Part shown: positions 7,846-62,977 of the stretch, in pieces | How the letters are laid out: each line of letters opens with the position of its first letter | Position numbering within the stretch: position 1 is the first letter of the stretch | DNA from: Arenibacter sp. 6A1 | GTDB taxonomy: Bacteria; Bacteroidota; Bacteroidia; Flavobacteriales; Flavobacteriaceae | Direction: 5' to 3' | DNA: 64,000 nt | Assembly (NCBI RefSeq): GCF_012272855.1 | Contig: NZ_JAAXCQ010000006.1 | Span: 124,001-188,000 of the forward strand | Notes under the pieces: model-generated | What the model saw: only the letters and a program-made list of their open reading frames with translations | What the model was told of the DNA's origin: nothing | Databases searched by the model: none | Translations under genes and position numbers: made by a program

Positions 7846-8172
7846 GTTAATTTTCTTGATAGACTTTTTATCAAAACTAAGAAATATAAGTGATAACAAA
7901 ACTAAGGGTAGGGAGAAAGCTACACCTTTCTTACTATGGAGTGTTTATGTATAAAACACTGTAAGACAATGGTTGGAAGTCTTGGGGAGTCATAAGGTAT
8001 GGATAATTAAACTTCTTAACGTATTTTTAGGCTTTCAAAAAAGGGATAATTTTACCTTTACGCGACAATTAGTAACGTTTCCATTAAATGAGCATGACCC
8101 AAAACTGGTCCCAAATACCAATGAAGAAATGCGAATTACATATGACCGTTAAAAAACAAGAAATATCTGCAT
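7846..8172. other. 327-base divergent intergenic region between the M14 peptidase and bshC
   Basis: It holds the leaders of two divergent genes. The right-hand 87 bases are copy 1 of the paired element described separately. A -7-like TACCTTTA at 8053-8060 is the only promoter-like string I see for bshC, and no good TTTG partner is visible. I see no RNA gene. Confidence 0.5.
8086..8172 (+). repeat. 87-base paired leader element, copy 1 (upstream of bshC)
   Basis: Aligns without gaps to 61985-62071, with 14 mismatches in 87 and only 9 in the first 81. Both copies end at the base before a start codon (bshC here, rnz there). GACC (8097-8100) and GGTC (8107-8110) can form a small hairpin. GGTC can instead pair, as AAC-t-GGTC, with GACCGTT (8144-8150); all three pieces are identical in both copies. 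A 31-codon mini-ORF (8088-8183) runs through the element and overlaps the bshC start out of frame. The function is unknown. Confidence 0.75.
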
Positions 8173-9774
8173 ATGAAAGTTAAAGGCATACCTTTTAAAA
8201 ACACTGGCTATTTTTCCGATTTAATATGTGATTATCTAAATGGGAAAGAAGCTTTGTCTCCATTTTATAATAGGCAGCCTACCTTAGCACAGTTTAAGGA
8301 ACAGATAAAAGAGAAGAACAGTTTTTCACAAAACAACAGGGATGTTTTGCACGATGCGCTTATTGGGCAGTACGCAAACACCCAGACTTCTGCAGATACA
8401 GCAACTAATATCTCTTTGCTCAAAGCACCCTCTACTTTTACGGTGGTTACCGGGCACCAGTTGAATTTGTTCACCGGACCCTTGTATTTCCTATATAAAA
8501 TTATATCGACCATTAATCTAGCGAAGGAATTAAAGCGCGATAATCCCGAATATAATTTTGTGCCCATTTATTGGATGGCTACCGAAGACCACGATTTCGA
8601 AGAAATCAACTATTTTAATTTTAGGGGAAAGAAATTACAGTGGAATAAAAAATCTTCTGGAGCAGTAGGGGTTTTGGAAACCGATGGTTTGGAAGCAATA
8701 TTAGAGGCCTTTTCCAATGAAATAGGGAATAGCCATCATGCTAATAAGTTAAAGGAAATGTTCCAAAAGGCCTATCTGGAGCATAATACCCTAACGGATG
8801 CTACCCGCTTTTTGGCCAATGAGCTCTTTGGAGAGTATGGCTTGGTGATTTTGGATGGTGACGATAGAGCATTGAAGCAGTTAATGGTGCCCTATATAAA
8901 GAAGGATTTGCTGGCAAAAACCTCCTTCGAAAACGTAAAGACGACCATAGAAAAACTTCAGGCCTTACCAGAAAATTATGGGATACAGGTAAACCCTAGG
9001 GAGATAAATTACTTTTATATAAAGGATGGTCTCCGGGAGCGGATTATAGAACAATCAGGAAGATTTTATGTGAATGATACCAAAATAGAATTCTCCCAAG
9101 ACGAAATTCTAACAGAACTTAACAATCACCCCGAGCGGTTTTCGCCAAATGTAATCTGTAGGCCCTTATTTCAAGAGGTGATATTGCCAAACCTTTGCTA
9201 TATCGGTGGTGGGGGAGAACTGGCGTATTGGTTAGAACTAAAAGAGGCCTTTTCGGCCATGGAAGTGCCTTTTCCAATATTATTGTTGCGTAACTCGGCC
9301 TTGGTGATTACAGAGAAGCAATTTGGAAAACTAGAGCGAATGGGAATTTCCTTAACCGATATATTTCTAAAACAGAGCAGTTTTATCAATAAAAAAATCC
9401 GGGAAATTTCGAATATCGATATCGATTTTACTCCACAAAAAAATCTCCTAAAAGAACAGTTTACAGGAATGTACGAACTGGCAGCTCAAACAGACCCTTC
9501 CTTCACTGGAGCCGTAAAAGCTCAGGAAATTAAACAATTGAAGGGATTAGAACACTTGGAGAAGCGGTTGTTGAAAGCCCAAAAGCGAAAATTGGAAGAT
9601 CAGGTGAAACGTATGACGGCACTTCAGAACGAACTTTTTCCTAACAAATCCCTGCAAGAGCGGAACCTTAATTTTTCTGAACTGTACCTAGAATATGGTC
9701 AAGAGTTGATTCCAGTCCTAATGAACGCCCTACAGCCATTGTCTGGTGAGTTTTCTATCGTAATAATGGATTAA
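8173..9774 (+). CDS. bshC: Bacillithiol biosynthesis cysteine-adding enzyme BshC
   Basis: Catalyses the last step of bacillithiol synthesis, adding cysteine to glucosaminyl-malate. The 533-residue length matches the family. Motifs include VVTGHQLNLFTGPLYFLYK (TGHQ at 93-96), PIYWMATEDHDFEEIN (about 131-145), a central Rossmann-type core, and a C-terminal coiled coil (about 430-495) used for dimerisation. The final segment NFSELYLEYGQELI is typical. The start ATG directly follows the 87-base paired element, whose mini-ORF stops 11 bases inside bshC. bshA and bshB are not in the window. Confidence 0.93.
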   Translation: MKVKGIPFKNTGYFSDLICDYLNGKEALSPFYNRQPTLAQFKEQIKEKNSFSQNNRDVLHDALIGQYANTQTSADTATNISLLKAPSTFTVVTGHQLNLFTGPLYFLYKIISTINLAKELKRDNPEYNFVPIYWMATEDHDFEEINYFNFRGKKLQWNKKSSGAVGVLETDGLEAILEAFSNEIGNSHHANKLKEMFQKAYLEHNTLTDATRFLANELFGEYGLVILDGDDRALKQLMVPYIKKDLLAKTSFENVKTTIEKLQALPENYGIQVNPREINYFYIKDGLRERIIEQSGRFYVNDTKIEFSQDEILTELNNHPERFSPNVICRPLFQEVILPNLCYIGGGGELAYWLELKEAFSAMEVPFPILLLRNSALVITEKQFGKLERMGISLTDIFLKQSSFINKKIREISNIDIDFTPQKNLLKEQFTGMYELAAQTDPSFTGAVKAQEIKQLKGLEHLEKRLLKAQKRKLEDQVKRMTALQNELFPNKSLQERNLNFSELYLEYGQELIPVLMNALQPLSGEFSIVIMD

Positions 9775-61774: not shown

Positions 61775-61984
61775 GTTAAGGTACTTTAATCTAACACCAA
61801 TATTTCTATAATTATTTTGGTGGCCGTAGACGGCCTAAATGATGCTTGCCTTTCAACGTATGCCCTAGACCCACAAGCTGGTTTCTAAACAGAAATCAGT
61901 TGTTGATTTTCTAGTACGGGTAAGGGAAAAATATGTGTTCAGCGGAAATAATAATCGCAGTCTTTACAATTTACCTACCTTATG
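61775..61984. other. Non-coding stretch before the paired element and rnz
   Basis: Contains a compact GGCCGT-AG-ACGGCC palindrome (61822-61835) without a T-run, and otherwise nothing I can name. Confidence 0.45.
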
Positions 61985-62071
61985 AAATGAGCACGACCGA
62001 AAACTGGTCGCAAATACGAATGAAGATTTGTGAATTACATATGACCGTTATAAAACAATAAATATACATAG
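61985..62071 (+). repeat. 87-base paired leader element, copy 2 (upstream of rnz)
   Basis: Ungapped partner of 8086-8172; it also ends at the base before a start codon (rnz at 62072). It carries GACC-7-GGTC and the alternative AAC-t-GGTC / GACCGTT pairing. A 24-codon mini-ORF (61987-62061) ends 10 bases before rnz. Compared with copy 1 the shared codons show 6 amino-acid changes and 2 silent changes, so the peptide is not clearly under selection. Confidence 0.75.
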
Positions 62072-62977
62072 ATGAAATTAAATATACTGGGTTGTTATGC
62101 GGCTACACCAAGGTCTTTAAATAATCCGACAGCCCAAGTTCTCGAAATTAAAAATCACTTGTTTTTAATAGATTGCGGGGAAGGTACCCAAGTACAATTA
62201 CGCAAGAGTAAAGTCAGGTTTTCGAGGATCAACCATATTTTTATTTCACATTTACATGGAGATCATTTTTTTGGACTACCAGGACTAGTCTCTACTTTTC
62301 GTTTGTTGGGAAGGAAGACGCCATTGCATGTATACGGCCCCAAGGGCATTAAGGAAGCTATAACCTTACTTTTAAAACTAGGGGATTCATGGACCAATTA
62401 TCCGCTGTTGTTCCATGAATTGACATCTTCGGAATCAGAACTTGTTTTTGAGGACAATACAGTAACCGTTTCTACTATTCCACTACAGCATAGAGTCTAT
62501 ACCAATGGTTTTTTGTTCAAGGAAAAGCCGGGGCAAAGGCAATTGAATGTCGCGGCAGCCGAAAAATATAGTATAGACCGCTGCTATTACCAGAATATAA
62601 AGAATGGCAGAGATATTAGGTTAGAGGATAATAGGCTTATCGCTAATGCCGAGCTTACCTTTGATCCGCCAAAGCCAAAGAGCTATGCTTTCTGCAGCGA
62701 TACAGCTTATACAACATCAATTGTTCCGCTGATTAAAGATGTAGATGTATTGTATCATGAGGCTACATTTTTGGAGACCGAAAAAGATTTGGCGCCAAAA
62801 ACAAAACATGCTACGGCAAAGGAAGCAGCTAGTATTGCAAAAGCGGCCAATGTGGGGCAGCTTATTCTAGGGCATTTTTCAACCCGCTATAAATCTATAG
62901 AGCTGTTTAAAGAAGAGGCTCAGACAATTTTCTCCAATGTCGCCCTAGCCGATGACGGCAAGGAATTTCAACTGTAG
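62072..62977 (+). CDS. rnz: Ribonuclease Z
   Basis: Endonuclease that trims the 3' ends of tRNA precursors. A 301-residue metallo-beta-lactamase-fold protein with HLHGDH (60-65), the later His in STIPLQHRVYTNGF, the Asp block FCSDTAYT, and the final His in GHFSTRY. All usual metal ligands are present and the length is right for the short form. It is preceded by the 87-base paired element. Confidence 0.95.
   Translation: MKLNILGCYAATPRSLNNPTAQVLEIKNHLFLIDCGEGTQVQLRKSKVRFSRINHIFISHLHGDHFFGLPGLVSTFRLLGRKTPLHVYGPKGIKEAITLLLKLGDSWTNYPLLFHELTSSESELVFEDNTVTVSTIPLQHRVYTNGFLFKEKPGQRQLNVAAAEKYSIDRCYYQNIKNGRDIRLEDNRLIANAELTFDPPKPKSYAFCSDTAYTTSIVPLIKDVDVLYHEATFLETEKDLAPKTKHATAKEAASIAKAANVGQLILGHFSTRYKSIELFKEEAQTIFSNVALADDGKEFQL

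Follow-up and report, generated by a model that had tools for sequence, protein, structure and literature searches.

A putative very small transposable element of Bacteroidota placed at gene start codons

We describe a family of short non-coding DNA elements, two copies of which lie directly before bshC and rnz in a stretch of 64,000 nucleotides of the Arenibacter sp. 6A1 genome (hereafter, the window). The explanation that best covers all observations, and that we consider probable, is that each of the two represents a non-autonomous transposable element of very small size that occurs in Bacteroidota. That the family is mobile and targets ATGAA(A) words in non-coding DNA, for the most part those that open a gene, is almost certain.

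The two copies in the window and the extent of the family

A preliminary description of the window had aligned two stretches of 87 bases without gaps, with 14 mismatches, and this alignment was reproduced. In a BLAST search of its own genome, copy 1 finds copy 2 at 89% identity over 81 bases (E = 5.0e-24); five of the last six positions differ, bringing the total to 14 mismatches in 87. As had been reported, both copies end directly before an ATG, and the genes behind them are bshC and rnz (Table 1). The 87 bases stand as delimited at the time, but the similarity reaches three bases further 5′, beginning at 61982 (ATG) and 8083 (ATT), and thus takes in the triplet that we read as the old start codon. 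No third copy was detected in the window at E ≤ 0.01. The copy orthologous to copy 2 in genome G009 is about 120 bases long and has an insert at the middle site, which is lacking in the G000 copy.

Table 1. Features of the two element copies in the window and of the genes that follow them
Feature	Position	Strand	Basis or remark
Left-hand triplet ATT, read as decayed old bshC start codon	8083..8085	+	G009 copy before bshC has ATG
Element copy 1, 87 bases, 5′ of bshC	8086..8172	+	Alignment, BLAST
Region of copy 1 closed by stem A	8087..8137	+	Coordinates from the alignment; helices from covariation counts
Arms of stem A, copy 1	8087..8093 (AATGAGC) and 8131..8137 (GCGAATT)	+	
Hairpin B of copy 1, inside stem A	8096..8099 (GACC) with 8107..8110 (GGTC)	+	
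Stem C of copy 1; terminal CATATG includes the bshC start codon	8139..8175	+	CATATG 8139..8144 with CATATG 8170..8175
bshC, 533 aa, start codon from the element junction	8173..9774	+	TIGR03998, E = 7.7e-147
Left-hand ATG, read as old rnz start codon	61982..61984	+	
Element copy 2, 87 bases, 5′ of rnz	61985..62071	+	Alignment, BLAST
Stem C of copy 2, partly decayed	62038..62074	+	CATATG 62038..62043; TAGATG 62069..62074 includes the rnz start codon
rnz (ribonuclease Z), 301 aa	62072..62977	+	NF000801, E = 8.3e-111

Used as an 87-base BLAST query, copy 1 gave 43 matches in its own genome at E ≤ 10, and a profile (A3) built from 40 copies recovered 73 copies there at E ≤ 1e-3. The single query also matches 15 of the 17 other Arenibacter genomes. 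By profile, 17 of 18 Arenibacter genomes are matched, its own included, with 85, 73, 59, 49, 24, 18 and 16 copies at the top of the range and 0 to 8 in the remainder. The preliminary description had judged chance a poor explanation of the likeness and had named a lack of other copies as the outcome that would point to a local duplication. That outcome did not arise: chance likeness or a single local duplication, already at odds with the E value, is excluded by copy number and by the Arenibacter matches, and its probability is negligible.

Beyond Arenibacter, model R1 matches 113 of 299 Flavobacteriaceae genomes at E ≤ 1e-3, in 97 of 236 genera. All 28 new Flavobacteriaceae loci inspected precede an ORF of at least 57 aa, which starts with ATG in 27 cases and with TTG in one. 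Model R2 matches 43 of 395 Bacteroidota genomes, other classes among them; 21 of the 27 loci shown run directly into an ORF of at least 75 aa, and the remaining six comprise one tandem copy, three apparently orthologous loci at which the start is displaced and two cases that are unclear. Copy counts per genome obtained with R1 and R2 are lower bounds, 10 to 14 candidates having been scored per genome under stricter filters. Moreover, both models hold ATGAAA at both ends and are thereby biased toward such sites; ATGAAC and ATGAAT are also used in some genomes of other families (G467).

The element matches no Rfam family at the gathering threshold or at E ≤ 10, the four matches listed falling elsewhere in locus L254. 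A phage or plasmid origin was rejected: searches of 50,697 phage records and 72,556 plasmid records gave no match at E ≤ 1e-5, and the 20 viral contigs with an exact 16-base pattern diverge from the element beyond it when compared by eye. Searches of open-licence PMC papers listed no description of such an element, although one may already exist in print.

Target word, placement and evidence of movement

Placement was surveyed for copies at E ≤ 1e-4 in 946,428 bases of the own genome, made up of 46 stretches: the window, 40 picked for holding copies and five neighbouring ones on contig C57. Forty of the 53 copies lie directly before the initial ATG of an ORF that is at least 100 aa long; 13 do not, several of which are truncated or decayed. 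None of the 53 lies clearly within a coding frame; L135 was flagged as doing so, and there the start was called further upstream, in the element itself. With ORFs defined in the same way, ATGAAA words in non-coding DNA occur 173 times at ORF starts and 211 times elsewhere. Once element sites are removed from this background, the ratio of start to other positions at ATGAAA is 34:4 for the copies versus 139:211 (p = 3e-9), and the word is present at 34 of 40 start-codon copies versus 139 of 692 other starts (p = 4e-17). These counts indicate that ATGAA(A) is the target word and that gene starts are over-represented even given the word, an excess to which retention may contribute, since a copy that supplies a start codon is hard to lose. 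A further caution is that the search model itself includes ATGAAA. With the 87-base BLAST query, which has no 3′ ATG, 22 of the 30 loci among the matches listed adjoin ORFs of at least 100 aa, the gene at L005 being taken from the later placement survey.

In G023, a genome of the same family and another genus, 11 copies at different sites show no difference over 97 bases, and identity is at least 96.9% among 23 full-length copies. Of the latter, 17 run into an ORF of at least 77 aa (L320 has ATA for ATG) and six are intergenic (L285, L287, L291, L322, L334 and L335). By comparison, non-coding ATGAAA words in 113 kb of G023 DNA number 20 at starts and 31 elsewhere (p = 0.011). Copies in a further genome, G520, are up to 100% alike.

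A sugar-isomerase-like gene (named by eye; protein MKTIKGPAVFLAQF...) carries copies in both G023 (L278) and Arenibacter (L040, L057). These belong to different subfamilies in two genera, as if the gene had been hit independently.

Occupied and empty sites were compared for four genes, most orthologues of two genes being unreadable and the gene at L039 left out. In occupied sites, the position of the old ATG remains upstream, followed by 87 bases and then by a new ATG joined to the gene; the approximately 25 bases before the new ATG are A+T-rich. Four candidate empty sites were tried by setting G009 copies against their G000 counterparts, and at both readable ones the left junction is the position of the empty-site ATG; in one case the left triplet is now AGG, so that the junction rests on position. 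A thiE-like gene is empty in G008 (ATGAATAAA) and occupied in G004 (ATGAAATGAG...ATGAATAAA), from which it follows that the bases 3′ of the new ATG are the target's, while the last A after the old ATG is the element's. Two other genes have an odd second codon, which looks like a later mutation because G009 has ATGAAG and ATGAAA there.

Among readable orthologues, lpxB is occupied in two of 12 and rnz in two of seven, in both cases in G000 and G009; this confinement points to gain. All nine readable kdsB loci hold at least a remnant, and some of them (L190, L195, L196) have undergone decay or deletion; L190 and L196 exemplify old copies from which a part is missing or in which pairing is lost. 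Orthologues were read by start pattern, by which fabF was readable in none of seven loci, bshC in none of four beyond G000 and G009, kdsB was unreadable in G000, G009 and G015, and rnz was unreadable in four of 11 loci. Taken together with the large number of copies, the burst of identical copies in G023 and the exact placement at unrelated start codons, the empty orthologous sites support the mobile leader first suggested for the two copies in the window.

Tandem copies have a period of 90 to 97. Head-to-tail tandems in which adjacent units have ATGAAA in common are seen at L292 (G128), L194 (G004) and L376 (G165), and in G520 at L442, L443, L446 and L448.

Of 18 copies that are not at starts, four run antisense to the genes on either side, which argues for DNA, not mRNA, as the target. 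An element carried as RNA, which would enter mRNA or return by reverse transcription, would strike starts as parts of transcripts, and the strong excess at starts and a conserved fold with a pseudoknot including the start codon (see below) would both suit it; these antisense copies and the lack of Rfam similarity at E ≤ 10 speak against it, and we judge it improbable.

A conserved fold with covarying ends

Comparison of subfamilies yielded four helices: stem A near the left end, hairpin B within A, stem C at the right end and stem D. Judged from the pairing pattern, stem D crosses C and probably forms a pseudoknot. In an alignment of 40 diverse copies (A4), 86.7% of cells in the four helices are paired, compared with 74.7% after shuffling and at most 41.7% when slid, and two-sided changes number 85, compared with 34.7 after shuffling, covariation counts being inflated by kinship among copies. 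Stem C forms between an internal CATxxx and the xxxATG at the right end, with a variable pair that is GC in 21 copies, AU in 11 and CG in 5. Stem A contains G.A in 34 of 40 copies and A.G in 33 of 40, both replaced by Watson-Crick pairs in the CATCC/GGATG subfamily.

A second test was carried out with 30 of 47 further copies, leaving out duplicates and near-duplicates, much shorter or longer forms, N-containing sequences and, unnecessarily, L388. Pairing amounted to 97.8% in stem C (shuffled mean 86.2, maximum 90.5), 87.4% in stem D (67.0, 77.0), 72.9% in stem A (59.4, 63.8) and 69.8% in hairpin B (59.4, 66.2); as C, B and three pairs of A were part of search model R2, only D and the remaining A pairs are independent here. 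Within Arenibacter alone the fold signal is weak (79.0% versus 74.3%), RNAalifold returned no structure for the first, Arenibacter, alignment, and folding energies are ordinary (z from +0.40 to −3.28).

The borders of the insert coincide with the outer ends of stems A and C, suggesting that the fold defines the mobile unit. The covariation is real, yet it is equally expected if the fold serves transposition, and it does not tell RNA and single-stranded DNA apart.

Several length variants were observed. Short forms of 64 bases (L398, L400) lack the region of hairpin B, and long forms of about 122 bases (L401, L457-L460) have approximately 25 extra bases; both ends are kept in either. Differing hairpin-like inserts of approximately 10 to 30 bases occur at, or close to, a single internal position, in most cases separating the CAT from the ATG of the internal CATATG (L009, L020, L044, L045, L204, L263, L264, L293 and L294). 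On a first reading, the inserts of about 24 bases would be an independent REP; the strict core pattern of one insert has four occurrences in 946 kb of the own genome, all within element copies.

In genus g147, a locus that is apparently orthologous in L383, L384 and L388 has ATA (GTA in L388) in place of the terminal ATG, and the gene probably begins at the ATGAAA that comes next. Coupled C-to-T and G-to-A substitutions preserve the outer stem C pair in L383 and L384, a hint of a cis role at that locus.

The preliminary description had also considered a shared post-transcriptional control element, and this does not hold as the general case. A cis-acting leader that controls translation and is kept by selection wherever it has landed could draw on the start codon lying within stem C, and on L383 and L384, where the outer pair is retained though the triplet is no longer ATG. 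Set against this, one genus holds anything from 0 to 85 copies per genome, the genes behind the copies have no common theme, copies decay and are partly deleted, and some are antisense. In addition, just 20 of 40 copies in A3 and 19 of 40 in A4 contain an open internal frame for a leader of 20 aa or more, and lengths vary out of frame. A selected leader is therefore very improbable; a leader peptide was rejected on the grounds that its reading frame is not conserved in A3 or A4.

Possible mechanism, related systems and meaning

Since the element has no evident protein, it is probably moved in trans. By analogy with IS200/IS605, we tentatively propose that a folded single strand would be excised and inserted by a trans-acting HUH (Y1-type) transposase, the enzyme type that we consider most likely, although the chances of the HUH step fall somewhat short of even. 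The enzyme would cut 3′ of ATG at both ends, and an internal guide (CAT) would pair with the end ATG to locate the cut sites, as it does in IS200/IS605. The gene proceeds in frame from the new ATG and hence stays readable; with the new ATG serving the gene, most copies would go on to erode in the leader by neutral change. Survival of the gene would be due to the new ATG being in frame and preceded by A+T-rich bases. Bacteroidetes are described as generally lacking Shine-Dalgarno sequences (PMC3155529), and an AT enrichment around −12 is reported for Flavobacteriaceae. The paper reporting that enrichment also describes upstream structure as inhibiting translation, so that stem C may carry a cost.

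No mobilising gene was identified among the loci examined. Both of the examined genomes with near-identical copies have Y1 genes (14 matches in G023, six in G520), Y1 presence being common generally. Y1_Tnp gave no match in nine element-carrying genomes (G013, G181, G110, G150, G022, G327, G308, G512 and G527), and in one of these, G512, two copies are 93% alike. At the four Y1 loci of G000, no adjacent copy stood clearly above the shuffled level. Among 30 Y1 loci from 25 genomes, three (L354, L357, L372) have one clear copy within approximately 1.2 kb, and none has a copy on both sides of the Y1 gene. Two copies of an IS200-like unit in G023 have ends that differ from the element. The element as part of a Y1 unit was thus tried on the Y1 loci of G000, the set of 30 loci, the IS200-like unit and the flanks of RAYT genes, with nothing decisive resulting.

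The nine genomes with no Y1 match would fit movement in double-stranded form, brought about by a transposase with a target duplication of 3-5 bp (ATG or ATGAA) or else by a recombinase that crosses over at an ATGAA core common to the target and a circular form. ATG or ATGAA is indeed common to both flanks, and tandem copies fit recombination of a circle into a resident element. Such a route nevertheless leaves unexplained why the ends are conserved single-strand helices with covarying outer pairs, and no terminal inverted repeats are evident; we regard it as a real possibility, though less likely than not.

The proposed single-strand route invites comparison with IS200/IS605 and its non-autonomous derivatives, which likewise insert beside a short fixed target word (here ATGAA(A)) and have hairpins near both ends (here stems A and C, which covary). 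They also have a guide beside a hairpin that is able to pair with the cleavage word, a putative role in our element; in IS200/IS605 the guide 5′ of the hairpin is described as pairing with the target word (PMC6006769). In contrast to IS200/IS605, the element has no internal transposase and, at the loci examined, does not flank a Y1 gene on both sides, although lack of its own enzyme is also expected of an IS200/IS605 derivative. It further differs in that its right-end helix includes the cut word itself, in the support for a pseudoknot, and in that it targets a start codon and re-supplies one. The target of the element requires AA after ATG, and IS200/IS605 insertion is not known to depend on bases in such a position, a point against the HUH step.

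REP sequences and their RAYT (TnpA_REP) enzymes offer a second parallel, in that REPs are also short, multicopy, non-coding, foldable and extragenic. REPs are described as hairpins of 21-65 nt with a GT[AG]G foot (PMC6006769), whereas the element measures approximately 87-91 nt, ends in ATG and has no such foot. The palindrome flanking the Bacteroidota RAYT-like genes shown is different and GC-rich in four of six cases, as assessed by eye. Bacterial MITEs, compared here by description, resemble the element in being small, encoding no protein, probably moving in trans and reaching many copies; the element differs in its consensus, in which no terminal inverted repeats are visible by eye, its ATGAA(A) target and its start-codon placement. 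HEARO RNA, a further lead, has ATGA/GTGA sites. TAACTGA repeats are described upstream of start codons in Beggiatoaceae (PMC4679880) and are likewise concentrated before genes, but they are seven-base direct repeats in another phylum. Flavo-1 and other structured RNAs of Bacteroidetes, reported as present in Rfam (Weinberg 2010, PMC2864571), are conserved folds like the element, which itself has no Rfam match.

Small non-coding mobile elements are already known; the novelty lies in the choice of start codons as target, in the ATG that is supplied anew and in the probable pseudoknot. That the element represents a protein-free class of its own, widespread in Bacteroidota, in which a folded strand encodes its own target recognition through pairing of an internal guide with the ATG end and which has specialised in start codons by re-supplying the codon together with a leader, is a reading to which we give nearly, although not quite, even chances. 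If it is true, the element would be a transposon adapted to near-invisibility to the gene it hits.

Insertions into a start codon normally destroy the gene. The sequences suggest that this element strikes the start codon with the gene left in working order, also where the gene is usually essential: copies precede genes that we named by eye from their proteins as methionyl-tRNA synthetase (L391), fabF (L031) and kdsB (L035). Owing to the burst in G023, the question of which enzyme mobilises the element can be tested directly. If confirmed, the element would represent a new strategy of harmless transposition and a new target rule, would explain the leaders of many genes in Bacteroidota along with their start codons, and would affect start-codon annotation across the phylum.
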